A stretch of DNA of 64,000 bases from Alphaproteobacteria bacterium (GTDB lineage Bacteria; Pseudomonadota; Alphaproteobacteria; Ferrovibrionales; Ferrovibrionaceae): positions 1-64,000 of the forward strand of contig CANJGB010000020.1 in the NCBI GenBank assembly GCA_947473805.1, written 5' to 3'. Below are positions 5,446 to 13,477 of the stretch, piece after piece. How positions within the stretch are numbered: position 1 is the first letter of the stretch; each line of letters starts with the position of its first letter. Both the position numbers and the translations under genes were made by a program. Below the pieces are notes generated by a model. It saw nothing but the letters and a program-made list of their open reading frames with translations. It did not search any database and was not told the DNA's origin.

Positions 5446-6330
5446 ATGCGCCCGATCTGGGAAGGCCATTTGAAGCTTTCGCTCGTTTCCTGCCCGGTGG
5501 CGCTGTTCGGCGCCACGTCGCGGAGCGACGACATCCATTTTCACCTCATCCACAAGAAGACGAATCACCGCGTCCGCATGGTGCCGACCGATCCGGAACT
5601 GGGCCCGGTCGAGCGCAAGGACCTCGTCCGCGGTTTCGAGACCTCGAAGGATCACTATGTCGTTCTGACAGACGAGGAGATCGCCGCCGCGCGCATTCCC
5701 TCGACCAAGGCCATCGATATCGACCGTTTCGTCGGTGTCGAGGAAATCGACCGCATCTACTGGAACGATCCGTACTACCTGGTGCCGGACGGCAAGGTCG
5801 GCATGGAGGCCTATCTGGTGATCCGCGAGGCGATGAAGAGCGCCGGCAAGATCGCCCTCGGCCGCCTGGTGCTGCACACCCGCGAACGGGTCGTGGCCAT
5901 CGAACCGCGCGGCAAGGGCCTGTTGCTCTCGACCCTGCGGTCGGAGGACGAGGTGCGCGACGATTCAGAATTCTTCGACAGGATTCCCGCCGGCAAGGGC
6001 GACAAGAATATGGTCGATATCGCCACCAAGATCATCGAGCAGCAGGAGGCCGGCTTCGATCCATCAAAATTTGTAGACCGCTACGAGGAGGCGCTCCGCA
6101 AGGTCATTGCCCGCAAGGGCAAGGGAAAGAGCGTCGTCGCCCCGCCGCCCGAGGAAGAGGAGAGGGTGGTCGATCTCATGGAGGCGTTGAAGCGCAGCCT
6201 GGGGGGTGGTGGGGAGAAGAGCGCCCGCGCCGAGCGCTTTATCGCGGCGCAGAAGCTCCAACCGAAGTCAGGGGCAAAGCCGAAAGCCAAGGCCAAGGTC
6301 GCCGCGAAACGGAAGAAAAAGGCCGCCTAG
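5446..6330 (+). CDS. ku: Non-homologous end-joining protein Ku
   Basis: 294 aa, the usual length for bacterial Ku. The N-terminus MRPIWEGHLKLSLVSCPV and the following beta-barrel core (HFHLIHKK, LVRGFE, DIDRFV, YLVPDG) are diagnostic. Ku forms a homodimeric ring on DNA ends and recruits LigD. The last about 40 residues are rich in Lys and Ala, the basic tail known to bind DNA in bacterial Ku. The ATG at 5446 has GGAGGAG at 5433-5439. The gene is convergent with ligD, and the two stop codons share the palindrome CTAG (6327-6330). Confidence 0.97.
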   Translation: MRPIWEGHLKLSLVSCPVALFGATSRSDDIHFHLIHKKTNHRVRMVPTDPELGPVERKDLVRGFETSKDHYVVLTDEEIAAARIPSTKAIDIDRFVGVEEIDRIYWNDPYYLVPDGKVGMEAYLVIREAMKSAGKIALGRLVLHTRERVVAIEPRGKGLLLSTLRSEDEVRDDSEFFDRIPAGKGDKNMVDIATKIIEQQEAGFDPSKFVDRYEEALRKVIARKGKGKSVVAPPPEEEERVVDLMEALKRSLGGGGEKSARAERFIAAQKLQPKSGAKPKAKAKVAAKRKKKAA

Positions 6331-8759
6331 CGGCCCTTCGTCAGCTTGTTCTGGATTTTGGCGCTCAGCGCGACGCGCGCCTTGTCGAAATCCGCCCACG
6401 GGTCGCGCCGCTGCAGCAGGCGGGCCGCGTCGCGCAGCGTCCATTGGCCCGGGCGGAAATCATCGATTTCGTCCCACGACAGCGGTACGGCCACGGGCGC
6501 GCCGGGTCGCGCCCGCACCGAATAGGCGGCGATGGCGGTGGCCGAACGTTCGTTGCGCAGGTAGTCGATGAAGATCTTTCCCTGCCGCAGCTTCTTCGAC
6601 ATCGTCGCGGTGAAGGCCTCGGGCGCTTCCGCCGCCAGGCTTTCCGCGAAGGCGCGCGCGAATGTCTTCACCTCAGTCCAGTCAGCGCGTGGTTTCAGCG
6701 GCACAATGACGTGCAGCCCCTTGCCACCGGTCGACTTCAGGAAGGTGGGCAGGTCCAGCGCCGCCAGCCGCTGCCTCACCAGCTGCGCCGCCATGACCAC
6801 GGCCTCGAATTTCACCTTCTCGTCGGGGTCGAGGTCGATGGTGATCACATCCGGCTTCTCGATGTTGCGCATCGTTGCGCCCCAGGGGTGCAGTTCGATG
6901 GCGCCGAACTGCGCCAGCGCCACCAGGCCCGCGGCATCCTTGACCATCAGATAGGGCTTGTCGGTGCCCTCGATGTTTACCGGCTGCACCAGCGCCGACA
7001 TGCCGGGGCTGCGATGCCGCTGGAAGAAGGTCGGCTTGTCGATGCCGTCGGGCGCGCGCAGCAGCGACAGCGGGCGGTTTGCCACGAAGGGCAGCAACAG
7101 CGGCGCGATGCGGTCGATATAGGCGGCAAGGTCACCCTTGGTGATGCCCTCGGCCGGCCACAGCTTTCTCTCCGGGTGCGAAATGGCGATGCCGGAAAAG
7201 GTCGTCTGGGCCGTGGCCGCGGGTTCGCTCACGTCATCTGCCGCCTTGTCCTCGCGCAGCGCCTTGTATGAAGCCTGCCGCAACAGGCCGTCGCCCGTCC
7301 AGCCGGTATATTCCACCTCCGCCACCAGTTCAGGACTTACCCAGGTGACGTCGCTTGTGCGCTCTGCCTGGCGGCCATGGAACGGGGTCGACTTGCGCGC
7401 CAGCGGTCGCAGCAGCTTCAACAGCGCCATCGCCTTGCGCCCGTCGAATCCGGTGCCGACCCGGCCCAGATAGACCAGGTTGTTGCCGCGCCGCGCGCCG
7501 AGCAGCAGGGCGCCCAGGCCATGGTCCTTCTTGCCCGCCGTAAAGCCGCCGATGACAAACTCGTCGCGTCCCCGGCACTTGGTTTTCAGCCATGACGGGC
7601 TGCGACCCGAGCGATAGGGCGCATCGACCTGCTTCGAAACCACGCCTTCCAGCGACAGGCGGCAGGCGGATTTCAGGATGGCGTCCCCGCCGGTCGTGAA
7701 ATGCTCGACATAGCGCAACACCTTGTCGTTCTTCTTGATGCGCTTGAACAGCGCCGCCTTGCGTTCCTTCAGCGGCCGGTCGCGCAGGTCTTCGGTGCCG
7801 TCATGCAGCAGGTCGAACAGGTACAATTGCGGTGACTTGCCGCCTTCCTCCAGCGCCTGCTGCAGGGCGGCGAAGTCGGAGCGTCCCTCGCGGTCCAGTA
7901 CGACCGCTTCGCCGTCGTAGATGCCGTCGGGCAGGGCGGCGACCGCCTTCGCAATGGCGGGAAACTTCTGCGTCCAGTCCAGGCCGGAGCGCGTCAGCAC
8001 CTTCGCCTTGCCGTCCAGCACGCGGCATTGCAGGCGATAGCCGTCCAGCTTGATCTCGTGCACCCAGTTCGCGCCATCGGGCACGTCGGTTGCCAGTGTC
8101 GCCAGTTGCGGCGGCACGAAGCCGGGCAGGGTAGAGGCGCTCGGCTTTGCTTTCGCTGCCTTCGGCTTCGCCGCCTTGCGGGCCGCGATTTCCTTCAGCG
8201 TGCGTCCGGTCTTGGCCGATTCCGCATGCGCCTCGACCTTGAAACCAACTTCGGCTTCCGTATCGTTGCCCTTGATCAGCAACCAGTTGGTGCGCTTCTC
8301 GCGCCCGCGCGGCTTTAGCCGTACCAGCGAGAAGCCACCATGCAGGCGCTCGCCATCCAGCGAGAAGCGCAGGTGCCCCTTGGCGAACCCTTTGTCGACG
8401 GACTCATCCTCCGGCGTCCACGTACCGCGGTCCCATACCTGCACGGTGCCGCCGCCATACTCGCCTTCGGGAATCGTGCCTTCGAAACTGCCGTATTCGA
8501 CCGGATGATCCTCGACCTCGACCGCGAGGCGCTTGTCGGCGGGATCCATGCTCGGACCCTTCGGCACCGCCTATGACTTCAGCACGCCGTGCCACTCCAG
8601 GCGGAAGTCGTAATGCAGGTGACTGGCATCGTGCCGTTGCACCACGAATGACAGCGCGTTCGACTTACCTTTGGGCGGGGCGCCCGCCGGTTCCGGCGTG
8701 CGGCTGAAACGCCGCTTGCGGCGATAGGTGGTGAGTTCAGCCGCGGTCTTGCGCGCCAT
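6327..8759 (-). pseudogene. ligD: ATP-dependent DNA ligase LigD (PE-Lig-Pol), interrupted by in-frame TAG
   Basis: Read through, this is an 810-residue LigD with the domain order phosphoesterase, ligase, polymerase. Codon 63 is TAG (8571-8573), exactly where the conserved Trp of the VLKSWAVPKGPS motif belongs (TGG to TAG); the frame continues unchanged on both sides. The 62-residue N-terminal piece holds the [11 protein letters not shown] metal-binding motif of the phosphoesterase, and the rest of that domain (EDHPVEYG) lies beyond the stop. The ligase lysine is in EIKLDGYR (about residue 237), and the polymerase has IDLDPDE. A GTG two codons after the stop has no ribosome-binding site, so re-initiation is doubtful. 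The start at 8759 lies 3 bases after the topoisomerase stop, in one operon. It may be a true nonsense mutation or a base-call error. Confidence 0.9.
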
Positions 8760-8762
8760 GGT

Positions 8763-9779
8763 TCACGCCCGCTGCAAATAGCCGACGAGCTTTCGCTCCA
8801 GCGACGAAAGCGCAACAATATCGAGCTGCGCTTCGTCATCAGACGGAGCGGCGAAGTGCAAGTCCAGGCAGCCGTCGGAAAAATCCTCAATCAGGCGTGG
8901 ATGGATATAGCTCGAGCGGCACACGGCAGGCGTATTGCCCAATTGCCGCGCCACCTTCTTCACCGCGCCGGCGAGCGCGCGGTTGGTCGCGTGCTCCGTC
9001 TCGCCCTTTGCCGTGCCGCTCAGCACCGCGGCGGCCAGCAGGGTCGCGTGCCAGGTGCGGAAGTCCTTCGCCGAGAAATCCGGGCCGCAATACTTGCGGA
9101 TATAGTCGTTCACGTCGGTGGAGGACACCGCATGAACCTTGCCATCGCGTCCGCGGTAACGGAACAGACGCTGTCCCGGCAGTTCCTGGCAGCGCCGCAT
9201 AATGCGGGCCAGTCGCGCATCACGCACCTCGACCTGGTGCTCCTTGCCGCTCTTGCCGGTGAACTCGAACAGGATGCGTGTGGAGCCCACATCGACATGC
9301 TTGCCGGTCAGCGTCGTCAGGCCGAACGATCCGTTCTGGGTGGCATATTCCGGATTGCCAACGCGGATCAGGCTCCATTCCAGCAGACGTACGACGGTGG
9401 CGGTCACCTTGCGGCGGCCGAGGCGATGGCGGGCCAGATCGGTCTCCACCTGCCGGCGCAGGCGGGGCAGGGCCTGGGCGAAATCCAGCACCCGGTCGAA
9501 CTTCTGCTCATTGCGGAAGGCCTGCCAGTCGGCGTGATACAGGTATTGCTTGCGGCCCTTGGCGTCGCGCCCGGTCGCCTGGATGTGCCCATGAGGCAGG
9601 GGGCAGATCCACACCTCGGTCCAAGCCGGCGGAATCACTAAGGCGGCAATGCGCTTCAGCACATTCGGGGCGCGCACCGGCTTGCCGTCCGGGAAGGGAT
9701 AGATGAATCCCTTGCCGTGTCGGCGGCGGCCAAAGCCGTCCTGGCTGTCGTCGCTATAGGTCAGGCGCTGCTTGCGCAT
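8763..9779 (-). CDS. DNA topoisomerase IB
   Basis: 338 aa, a bacterial poxvirus-like type IB topoisomerase that relaxes supercoils through a 3'-phosphotyrosyl intermediate. The catalytic set is visible: Arg in LIRVGN, Lys in FTGKSGKEH, Arg in KDFRTWHAT, and the nucleophile Tyr in CRSSYIHP near residue 295. Its ATG overlaps the stop of a 59-codon gene upstream (TGATG), and ligD starts 3 bases downstream, so it should be translated together with the end-joining enzymes. Topoisomerase IB near ligD is seen in other alphaproteobacteria; a functional link is an inference. Confidence 0.95.
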   Translation of the reverse strand: MRKQRLTYSDDSQDGFGRRRHGKGFIYPFPDGKPVRAPNVLKRIAALVIPPAWTEVWICPLPHGHIQATGRDAKGRKQYLYHADWQAFRNEQKFDRVLDFAQALPRLRRQVETDLARHRLGRRKVTATVVRLLEWSLIRVGNPEYATQNGSFGLTTLTGKHVDVGSTRILFEFTGKSGKEHQVEVRDARLARIMRRCQELPGQRLFRYRGRDGKVHAVSSTDVNDYIRKYCGPDFSAKDFRTWHATLLAAAVLSGTAKGETEHATNRALAGAVKKVARQLGNTPAVCRSSYIHPRLIEDFSDGCLDLHFAAPSDDEAQLDIVALSSLERKLVGYLQRA

Positions 9780-10009: not shown

Positions 10010-11209
10010 TCAGCCGATGGCGCCGGCCTGCCGCAGGGCGGCAATCTGGCCCTGGTCGTAGCCCAGGACCGCCTTCAGGACGTCGTCTGTGTGCTGGCCC
10101 AGCACGGGAGGGGCGCCGGGCTCGCGCACCGGGGTATCGCTCAGTTTCAGCGGTGAACCGGTGACCCGGAGCGTACCCTCGACCGCATGGGGCACGGTCT
10201 TGACCATGTCACGCGCCGCAGCATCGGGCGTGGCCAGGGCTTCGGCCATGCTGCACACCACGCCACCGGGGATCTGCCGTTTGGCCATGGCGTCCAGCCA
10301 GTATTCGCGGTCGCGGGTACGCAGGGTCTTGGTGATCTCGGGGATCAGTTCGGCGCGGTGTTCCAAGCGTGACGGATTGGTGATGAAGCGCGGGTCCTTG
10401 GCCAGTTCGGGCCGTTCCAGCACCTCGGTCGCGAAGCGGCGAAACTGGCTGTCATTGCCGACCGCCACGACCATGTCGCCATTCTTCGCCGGCAGCAACT
10501 GGTAGGGGACAATGTCCGGGTGCGCGTTGCCGAGGCGCGGGTGTTTTGTGCCAGCGTTCAGTGCGGACGAAGCCACGTTCGCCATGTTGGCCAAGGTGCA
10601 ATCAAACAGCGAGATGTCGATGTGCTGGCCGCGCCCGGTTTTCCCGCGCGCGATCACCGCGGCGAGAATCCCCTGCACCGCGTACATGCCGGCCATGATG
10701 TCCGACACCGCCACGCCGACCTTTTGCGGTTCGCCATCCGGCGCGCCGGTGATCGACATCAGGCCAGCCTCGGCCTGGATGATGAAATCGTAACCGGCGC
10801 GGGCCGCGCTGGGCCCCTTGCGGCCGTAGCCCGAGATCGAACAATAGATCAGCTTCGGGCAGCTTTCGGCGAGTTGATCGTAGTCAAGGCCGTACTTGGC
10901 CAGCCCGCCATACTTGAAATTCTCGACGAGGATGTCGGATTGCGCCGCCAGTTCGCGGATCACCTTCTGGCCCTCGGGACTGGCGAGGTCGATGGCAATG
11001 CTCTGCTTGCTGCGATTGGCGGACATGAAATAGCTGCGCGACCCGTTCGGCAGGCGCGAGCCCCAGGACCGTGTGTCGTCGCCGGCGCCGGGGCTTTCGA
11101 CCTTGATCACCTCGGCCCCCAGATCGGCCAGGGTCTGGGTGCACCAGGGCCCGGCCAGGATGCGGCTGAGGTCGAGGACGCGGATTCCATCAAGCGGCGG
11201 GGCGTTCAT
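10010..11209 (-). CDS. CoA-transferase family III (CaiB/BaiF/Frc)
   Basis: 399 aa, the standard size for family III CoA-transferases, which move CoA between carboxylic acids through an aspartyl-CoA thioester. The N-terminus reads LDGIRVLDLSRILAGPWCTQ, followed by ADLGAEVIKVESPG. The nucleophilic Asp is expected in the NFKYGGLAKYGLDYDQL region. The gene is divergent from a propionyl-CoA synthetase, suggesting linked acyl-CoA activation. The ATG at 11209 has no clear ribosome-binding site and lies 2-3 bases from a palindrome that could be an operator. Its donor and acceptor acids are unknown. Confidence 0.9.
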   Translation of the reverse strand: MNAPPLDGIRVLDLSRILAGPWCTQTLADLGAEVIKVESPGAGDDTRSWGSRLPNGSRSYFMSANRSKQSIAIDLASPEGQKVIRELAAQSDILVENFKYGGLAKYGLDYDQLAESCPKLIYCSISGYGRKGPSAARAGYDFIIQAEAGLMSITGAPDGEPQKVGVAVSDIMAGMYAVQGILAAVIARGKTGRGQHIDISLFDCTLANMANVASSALNAGTKHPRLGNAHPDIVPYQLLPAKNGDMVVAVGNDSQFRRFATEVLERPELAKDPRFITNPSRLEHRAELIPEITKTLRTRDREYWLDAMAKRQIPGGVVCSMAEALATPDAAARDMVKTVPHAVEGTLRVTGSPLKLSDTPVREPGAPPVLGQHTDDVLKAVLGYDQGQIAALRQAGAIG

Positions 11210-11231: not shown

Positions 11232-11245
11232 AGTTGCGCGAAATT

Positions 11246-11515
11246 AGAGCCTGATATCCCCAAATGGAAGCGGTTCTGCCGGAGCGATTTTTCGCCGAGG
11301 CAAGGTAAGTGGCCGCCGGCGGTAGTGGGGCTACCGCCAAGGCCACTGACGCGGCCTCGGCGAAAAAGCGCCCGGCCCTGCGGGTTTGCCGGCGGCGGCC
11401 GCCGGACGTCGTCGGCGCGCTTGCGCGTAGCCCCGCTACGCGCTGCGCGCCCCTCCTCGCCGCTCGCCGCGCCGCCGGCAAACAGAACCGCTTCCATTTG
11501 GGGATATCAGGCTCT
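11246..11515. repeat. 270-bp highly palindromic element (MITE-like)
   Basis: The ends are perfect 33-bp inverted repeats, 11246-11278 and 11483-11515, starting AGAGCCTGATATCCCC. Inside lie two further nested palindromes. One has 14-bp arms 11288-11301 / 11354-11367 enclosing AGTGGCC/GGCCACT and GGCGGTAG/CTACCGCC. The other has 12-bp arms 11385-11396 / 11471-11482 enclosing a hairpin at 11415-11450 (CGCGTAG/CTACGCG). Nearly every base can pair, forming a three-way junction. No coding frame or transposase is present. It fills the divergent promoter region between the CoA-transferase and prpE genes. The terminal TNA-GAGCC matches the end of the IS5-type element at the left edge, so mobilisation in trans by such a transposase is possible. 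No clear target duplication was found. Confidence 0.85.
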
Positions 11516-11581
11516 GACAGCAACCGCCGTGGCGGCAAAGCGGCGTGGCGGCTATGATCCGGCCGCTTTCGGGAGGACTAA

Positions 11582-13477
11582 ATGACCAGCCGCTACCAGG
11601 AAACCTATGACCATTCGCTGCGCGACCCGGAGGGCTTTTGGGCCGAGGCCGCGCGTGACCTGCACTGGTACAAGACCTGGGACAAGGTCCTCGACCGCTC
11701 CAACCCGCCGTTCTACCGCTGGTTTGCCGGCGCCGAGACCAACACCTGTTACAACATGCTCGACCGGCACGTGGAGGCGGGACGGGGCGCGCAGACCGCG
11801 GTCATCTACGATTCCCCCGTTACCAATACCGTACGGGCCATTACCTATGCCGAGTTGCGCGACCAGACTGCGCGCTTTGCCGGCGCGTTAAGGGCGCTGG
11901 GCGTCGGCAAGGGCGACCGGGTCCTGCTCTACATGCCGATGATCCCCGAAACCGTGACGGCGATGCTGGCCTGCGCGCGGTTGGGCGCGGTCCATTCGGT
12001 GGTGTTCGGCGGTTTCGCGCCGACGGAGCTGAAAACCCGTATCGACGACTGCAAGCCGAAGGTCATCGTGTCGGCCTCGTGCGGCATCGAGCCGGGCCGT
12101 ATCGTCGACTACAAGCCGTTGCTCGATGCCGCCATCGACCTCTCGACCCACAAGCCCGGCGCGTGCGTCATCGTGCAGCGGCCACAGATTGCCGCGGCGA
12201 TGACACCGGGGCGCGATGTCGACTGGGCCGACGCCATGCGTGACGCGAAGCCGGCGGACTGCGTGCCGGTCAAGGCGACTGACCCGCTGTACATTCTCTA
12301 CACGTCGGGCACGACCGGTATCCCCAAAGGCGTGGTGCGCGACAATGGCGGCCACATGGTCGCCCTCAAATGGTCGATGCAATATGTTTACGGCGTGAAC
12401 CCGGGCGAGGTTTACTGGGCAGCGAGCGATGTGGGCTGGGTGGTTGGCCATTCCTACATCGTCTATGCGCCGCTGCTGCACGGGTGCACGACGGTCCTGT
12501 ACGAGGGCAAGCCGGTCGGCACGCCGGACGCCGGCGCCTATTGGCGGCTGATCAGCCAGCATGGCGTTGCGGCCCTGTTCACGGCGCCCACCGCCTTCCG
12601 GGCGATCAAGAAGGAAGACCCGGACGGCGCGCTGATCAGCAAATACGACCTGTCGAAGTTCCGCACCCTGTTCCTGGCCGGCGAGCGCGCCGATCCGCCC
12701 ACGGTGCAGTGGGCCGAGGAGAAGCTGCAACGTCCCGTGGTCGACCACTGGTGGCAGACCGAAACCGCCTGGGCCATTGCCGCCAATTGCGTCGGCCTTG
12801 GCATGTTGCCGGTGAAGCACGGCTCGCCGACCAAGCCGGCGCCCGGGTATGACGTGCATATCGTCGATGACGAGAACAACGAGGTGCCGCCGGGCAAGAC
12901 CGGCAACATCGTCATCAAGCTGCCGCTGCCGCCCGCCTGCCTGCCGACCCTGTGGCAGAACGACCAGGGCTTCATCAACTCGTACATGGCCGAGTTTCCC
13001 GGCTACTACAAAACCGGCGATGCGGGCCTGATTGATGACGACGGCTATGTCTTCGTCATGGGACGTACCGACGACATCATCAACGTCGCTGGCCACAGGC
13101 TGTCGACCGGCGGCATGGAGGAGGTGCTCGCCGCCCACCCTGACGTTGCCGAATGTGCCGTCATCGGCGTGGCCGACGAACTGAAGGGCGAGGTGCCGCT
13201 CGGCTTCCTCGTGCTCAGGACCGGCGCGAAAGCCAGCGAGGCGCAGATAGTGATCGATGTCGTCCGGATGGTGCGCGAACGCATCGGTCCGGTGGCGGCG
13301 TTCCGCAGCGCGACGGTCATCAAGCGCCTGCCGAAGACGCGCTCGGGCAAGGTGCTGCGCGGCACGATGAAGAAGATCGCCGACAGCCAGCCCTTCCGCG
13401 CGCCCGCGACGATCGAGGATCCAGCCGTGCTGGATGAAATCGCCGCGGCGCTGAAGCCGTTGGGTTACGCGAAGTAG
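11582..13477 (+). CDS. prpE: Propionyl-CoA synthetase (AMP-forming)
   Basis: 631 aa, an acetyl/propionyl-CoA synthetase of the ANL superfamily. The P-loop-like motif is YTSGTTGIPKGVVRDNGGH (about residues 239-257), the adenylation motif is WWQTET, the hinge is YKTGDAG, and the C-terminal catalytic Lys is in KTRSGKVLRGT. The DNGGH extension and the start YQETYDHSLRDPEGFW favour PrpE over Acs. It makes propionyl-CoA from propionate, ATP and CoA. The ATG at 11582 has GGGAGGA 5 bases upstream. A TATGAT at 11553-11558 could be a -10 box; no good -35 was seen. Confidence 0.88.
   Translation: MTSRYQETYDHSLRDPEGFWAEAARDLHWYKTWDKVLDRSNPPFYRWFAGAETNTCYNMLDRHVEAGRGAQTAVIYDSPVTNTVRAITYAELRDQTARFAGALRALGVGKGDRVLLYMPMIPETVTAMLACARLGAVHSVVFGGFAPTELKTRIDDCKPKVIVSASCGIEPGRIVDYKPLLDAAIDLSTHKPGACVIVQRPQIAAAMTPGRDVDWADAMRDAKPADCVPVKATDPLYILYTSGTTGIPKGVVRDNGGHMVALKWSMQYVYGVNPGEVYWAASDVGWVVGHSYIVYAPLLHGCTTVLYEGKPVGTPDAGAYWRLISQHGVAALFTAPTAFRAIKKEDPDGALISKYDLSKFRTLFLAGERADPPTVQWAEEKLQRPVVDHWWQTETAWAIAANCVGLGMLPVKHGSPTKPAPGYDVHIVDDENNEVPPGKTGNIVIKLPLPPACLPTLWQNDQGFINSYMAEFPGYYKTGDAGLIDDDGYVFVMGRTDDIINVAGHRLSTGGMEEVLAAHPDVAECAVIGVADELKGEVPLGFLVLRTGAKASEAQIVIDVVRMVRERIGPVAAFRSATVIKRLPKTRSGKVLRGTMKKIADSQPFRAPATIEDPAVLDEIAAALKPLGYAK

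Follow-up and report, generated by a model that had tools for sequence, protein, structure and literature searches.

In bacteria, MITEs are commonly regarded as derived from a single insertion sequence (IS) by deletion. RIME, ERIC and REP/BIME are other dispersed intergenic palindromes. The CIR elements, presented by Chen and Shapiro in 2003, are reportedly organised as inverted repeats, one of which contains a GANTC site. A review describes the CIR elements of Caulobacter as long intergenic repeats of alphaproteobacteria (PMC10969869). MITEPsy1 of Pseudomonas syringae is a 100 nt element related to IS5/ISPsy2 and inserted at CTAG or YTAA; its transposition has been observed, and a 4-nt duplication and one IS partner have been reported (PMC3189936).

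We analysed a palindrome of 270 bases at positions 11246-11515 of the window, a 64,000 nt stretch of an alphaproteobacterial genome of the family Ferrovibrionaceae. It is, with high probability, a MITE-like non-autonomous transposon with mobility borrowed from IS and a structured core of two modules. Like MITEPsy1, the window family consists of short non-coding elements, often inserted at CTAG, with terminal inverted repeats (TIRs) that in one subfamily are common to an IS5-family IS. Unlike the window family, MITEPsy1 is 100 nt long, has a 4-nt duplication and one IS partner, and no conserved double-hairpin core has been described for it. Subfamilies A and B resemble CIR in having GANTC at position 23 of one arm, whereas a sequence scan found no GANTC (CcrM) site in the window copy; several of its relatives have one. 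Elements of the IS630, IS5 and IS1380 families share the terminal 16-29 nt and the CTAG/TA target with the matching subfamilies. However, they have full transposase genes, and the module is absent from those examined. RIME, ERIC and REP/BIME are set apart by description, in both length and architecture. Neither the motif letters nor an element of this kind turned up in literature searches.

The window copy and its surroundings

The nested palindrome is present as described in the initial annotation (Table 1), with ends perfect over 33 nt. The two inner hairpins had both been called perfect. This holds for the 14-nt outer arms of hairpin H2; the other was given as a perfect 12-bp hairpin and is instead hairpin H1, with main arms of 31 nt at 84% complementarity. 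The RNA fold of the palindrome is -212 kcal/mol versus -129.6 +/- 5.7 kcal/mol in dinucleotide shuffles (z = -14.5), and with DNA parameters z is -15.1. Mechanical ORFs traverse the palindrome and none is supported as a gene, in agreement with the claim that it encodes nothing. The TG at the right flank is presumably one point change from TA.

Table 1. Features of the window copy and its flanking genes, in window coordinates
Feature	Position	Strand	Length, basis or remark
Flanking gene, CoA-transferase family III	10010..11209	-	PF02515, E 1.4e-130; start 36 bp from element
Left target TA (T-TA)	11245..11246		Sequence; Y-TA-R consensus of 57 insertions
Left TIR, TAGAGCCTGATATCCCC... type	11246..11278	+	
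Predicted mobile element proper	11247..11514		268 bp; 33-nt TIR and TA...TA boundaries of homologous copies
Hairpin H1, structured module, sense on +	11278..11376	+	CM match 11289-11365, E 3.1e-15
Main arms of H1	11284..11314 / 11341..11371		
Mini hairpin CC-TGC-GG between modules	11377..11383	+	7 nt; position kept in other copies
Hairpin H2, same module as H1, sense on -	11384..11483	-	CM match 11405-11461, E 6.0e-12
Right TIR	11483..11515	-	Perfect complement of left TIR
Right target remnant, TG	11515..11516		Sequence; consensus of 57 insertions; mostly TA in other copies
Flanking gene, acetyl-CoA-synthetase-type AMP-binding enzyme	11582..13477	+	PF00501/PF16177/PF13193; start 66 bp from element

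The neighbours are divergent acyl-CoA genes, as first annotated. A flank search found no syntenic relative of the window locus, and the two flanking genes are not adjacent in relatives. No terminator-like or promoter-like sites were observed by consensus scan, and the Rfam search gave chance matches only, with nothing at gathering score. Elsewhere in the window, positions 6327-9779 of the minus strand contain putative ORFs, named by eye, resembling a LigD-type DNA ligase and a type IB topoisomerase.

The structured module

The same module occurs twice, as H1 and, in inverse orientation, as H2. It consists of a lower stem, (T)AGGAG, a 7-bp stem, GCN, an apex hairpin usually around NGGGG, CAA, the other half of the stem, and GACG. 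A covariance model (CM) was built from 38 modules; a trimmed alignment was used, as whole-module MAFFT misaligned the lower stems. In the alignment not fitted to the CM, the middle helix is 96% paired and the apex 90%, against 34-40% in slid controls, with two-sided changes in 25 of 28 pairs. Among 141 distinct CM-fitted modules, 88.5% of cells pair and 27 of 28 pairs have two-sided changes; the middle stem is 94% paired versus 33-42% in slid controls. Compensatory change, proposed at the outset as a check of the fold, is strong in both alignments.

In the orientation of the module, G-U pairs exceed A-C mismatches in the middle and apex helices by 48 to 12 at the 80%-cluster level, an excess that may be inflated since the sequences of this larger set were selected by the CM, and by 9 to 1 in the unfitted set. 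Were double-stranded DNA alone, or both strands, to matter, the two counts should be equal. One strand, as RNA or as single-stranded DNA (ssDNA), seems to be what folds. With H1 and H2 in opposite orientation, whichever strand is read inward meets the sense module as its first hairpin. This layout is compatible with RNA read in from either neighbour and also with ssDNA. The initial suggestion of a structured RNA gains partial support from the strong covariation and the G-U excess, with ssDNA also possible, and we infer a role of the module in transcripts or in ssDNA.

Copies and insertion sites

The initial annotation had pointed to possible copies in the same and in related genomes. The source genome (3.31 Mb, 58 contigs, 95% complete) contains this copy only, and relatives, most of them draft genomes, contain more. 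Dispersed copies with roughly 65-80% identity over matched parts were found in several genomes of the same family, and copies of the same architecture are dispersed in other Ferrovibrionaceae, in Thalassospira and in many other alphaproteobacteria. Single occurrence in the source genome would suit a palindrome arisen by chance or by local inverted duplication. However, the architecture and conserved motifs recur in dozens of genomes, and together with the fold z-score of -14.5 this leaves such an origin a negligible probability; the related copies refute it. Of the refuting condition set initially, a single occurrence without copies or covariation in relatives, only the part on copy number applies to the source genome; related genomes and covariation contradict it.

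Intact copies have the order TA, TIR arm, H1, mini hairpin, H2, TIR arm, TA, and are mostly 265-280 bp long. The 16 CM matches in the Ferrovibrio genome G007 (99% complete) all fall into 8 inward-facing pairs about 107 nt apart; 6 inward-facing module pairs were found in the second Ferrovibrio genome, G016, and about 20 or more copies in Thalassospira mesophila. A class-wide CM search found matches at E<=1e-4 in 49 of 385 alphaproteobacterial genomes, about 35 of which reach E<=2e-11 by hand count. The exact module pattern was found in 45 stretches across 85,000 species, most of them in T. mesophila; all are titled Alphaproteobacteria bar one MAG named only Pseudomonadota. Matches outside the class in a phylum-wide search are mostly weaker and, as the CM is stem-rich, weak single matches there cannot be counted as members unless read. 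Those read have either one module, at about 160-180 bp, or two, at about 260-280 bp, and share the unpaired motif; we take them as relatives. Four whole elements had no BLAST match in plasmids, and viral contigs gave none in pattern scans.

Several variants were observed. One-module relatives of about 160-180 bp outside the class (L231-L242, genomes G545 and G718) have CTAG-flanked TIRs (CTAGTGTGGTGTTTC...). A replicon of Burkholderia stagnalis contains an unannotated two-hairpin element with CTAGGGCCTGTTCACGCT ends, found through its TIR (L292:2001-2330). Some copies are longer, at 313-326 bp (L075:433-745, L052:1280-1605, L113, L181); the extra length of L075 is an additional hairpin within one module. 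At L213:1156-1681 two module pairs fall within about 530 bp, apparently as elements that are adjacent or nested. In genomes G139 and G373 several modules lie at extreme contig ends (e.g. L100:8-188, L097:44-222), which suggests near-identical copies breaking the assembly, and recent activity.

The 57 distinct insertions tabulated have TA at both sides, with a pyrimidine before the left TA in 54 and a purine after the right TA in 50; rows L072, L082, L159 and L187 of this table are misregistered, which leaves the picture unchanged. No single context is more frequent than CTAG (19 of 57). Mixed contexts, e.g. T-TA...TA-G, are incompatible with a 4-bp duplication as the general rule and point to duplication of TA. 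One site is occupied in G007 and G016 and uninterrupted at the same gene junction in G015, G017 and G010, a comparison made at 69-75% identity, at which the exact junction is not readable. Empty sites in relatives, one of the checks proposed initially, are thus seen at this insertion; the window locus has no relative to compare. At L117:841-1007 the end of an IS5-family element coincides exactly with the CTAG in the AGGAG loop of a module. The IS appears to have inserted into a MITE copy; MITE copies can also serve as CTAG targets.

Rough ORF calls place 44 of 46 copies between genes, many of them next to stop codons, and 19 of the 44 between convergent genes, compared with 49 of 235 background neighbouring gene pairs. 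Target choice may explain this placement, as TAG and TAA stops supply the target. One could instead see here a cis-acting structured RNA, or a bidirectional control of transcription (terminator, insulator, attenuator) of both neighbours, conserved in place: the fold is very stable and covarying, the window copy lies between divergent genes, and copies are frequent at gene ends. However, copies adjoin unrelated genes in unrelated genomes, the genes flanking the window copy are not neighbours in relatives, and both the TA boundaries and the empty site show insertion. The consensus scan and the Rfam search also speak against this reading, and we regard it as very improbable. The initial guess of a boundary element is not supported as such.

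The guess of a MITE, on the other hand, finds good support in the dispersed copies, in TA within Y-TA-R, in the occupied and empty pair and in ends in common with IS. The family shows the usual marks of MITEs: it is short and non-coding with TIRs, duplicates TA (imperfectly in the window copy, TA/TG), and occurs as dispersed copies at occupied sites with an empty counterpart. TIRs common to autonomous IS were found for three subfamilies.

Candidate mobilisers

The TIR sequences differ among subfamilies, and the core module is common to them. The TIR of subfamily H equals 17 of the first 18 nt of an IS5-type IS of the same genus, found in the Ferrovibrionaceae genome G017; the two ORFs of this IS are DUF4096 and DDE_Tnp_1. 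For subfamily B, about 25-27 of the first 29 nt are common to 1.05 kb IS630-family elements with DDE_3 from Agrobacterium and Rhizobium plasmids of the Rhizobiaceae. The GCCCGCATTTCTCACC subfamily matches both ends of 1.66 kb IS1380 elements from Pseudomonas and Stutzerimonas over 18 of 18 nt, including CTAG. The BLAST E-values of these short matches (0.07-4) are weak alone; the matches begin exactly at the IS boundary. Unrelated subfamilies compared with the same IS ends as a control mostly match at 5-13 of 18 nt, and the related subfamily E matches the IS630 ends at 15 of 18. The IS630, IS5 and IS1380 families are mutually unrelated and all sit in CTAG/TA. These shared ends suggest that IS transposases mobilise the elements in trans.

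The CM search found no module in the IS examined, and thus the core is not an IS remnant. Origin by internal deletion of a parent IS, considered as a source of the element, was set aside for the same reason.

TIR queries found no IS with ends matching the TIR of the window copy, which resembles only the TAGAGC group. Its TAGAGC start and its inner part ATGGAAGCGG point to the IS630-like group. The source genome has an IS5 element beginning with AGAGCC, which is a second candidate mobiliser. TIR queries for subfamily A, Thalassospira and a non-alphaproteobacterial type yielded no clear IS; one Microvirga match looks like coding sequence and was rejected. A search of seven copy-bearing genomes for the IS630 domain PF13358 found nothing. 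IS630 was at first disfavoured by this result and was restored for the TAGAGC subfamilies by the end match to the rhizobial elements. Copy-rich genomes such as G007 and G139 lack PF13340 and PF01609, and G007 also lacks PF13358, so the mobiliser there was lost or is of another kind. In T. mesophila, a TIR search for longer elements sharing these ends gave only spacings of MITE size and a few orphan ends.

The copy-rich genomes without the searched DDE families would suit a hairpin element moved on ssDNA by an HUH/Y1 enzyme (RAYT or IS200/IS605-like), with a coincidental likeness to the ends of DDE-type IS. The conserved unpaired bases beside the hairpins and the asymmetry of the sense strand also resemble hairpins recognised as ssDNA. 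However, long TIRs flanked by TA are a usual mark of DDE transposition, and three IS families share their ends with the elements in exact register, at both IS ends. This makes movement by an HUH/Y1 enzyme very improbable.

Under the preferred reading as a MITE-like transposon, a DDE transposase supplied by an IS would recognise the terminal repeats and insert the element at TA within Y-TA-R, often CTAG, with duplication of TA. For the TAGAGC-ended copies, probably including the window copy, this would most likely be an IS630-family transposase. The interior consists of a conserved structured module present twice in inverted orientation, rather than of a degenerate transposase gene, an arrangement that places the sense module as the 5'-proximal hairpin on either strand. 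The probable working form of the module is folded RNA, in transcripts entering from a neighbouring gene, or folded ssDNA, and in this form it may make insertions tolerable or efficient. The occurrence of the core with IS630-, IS5- and IS1380-type ends suggests that mobilisers have changed during evolution. Tentatively, one may go further and consider the module itself as the parasite: widespread in proteobacteria, it would adopt the TIRs of whichever CTAG/TA-targeting IS (IS630, IS5, IS1380) is available, its interior having an RNA or ssDNA role of its own. We hold this to be possible but somewhat doubtful.

The family accounts for otherwise unannotated repeats at gene ends in many genomes. 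A single folded core, conserved through compensatory change in different alphaproteobacterial families, occurs between ends that belong to three transposase families not related to each other. How non-autonomous elements change their mobiliser, and whether the interiors of MITEs are under selection as RNA or ssDNA, can now be tested.
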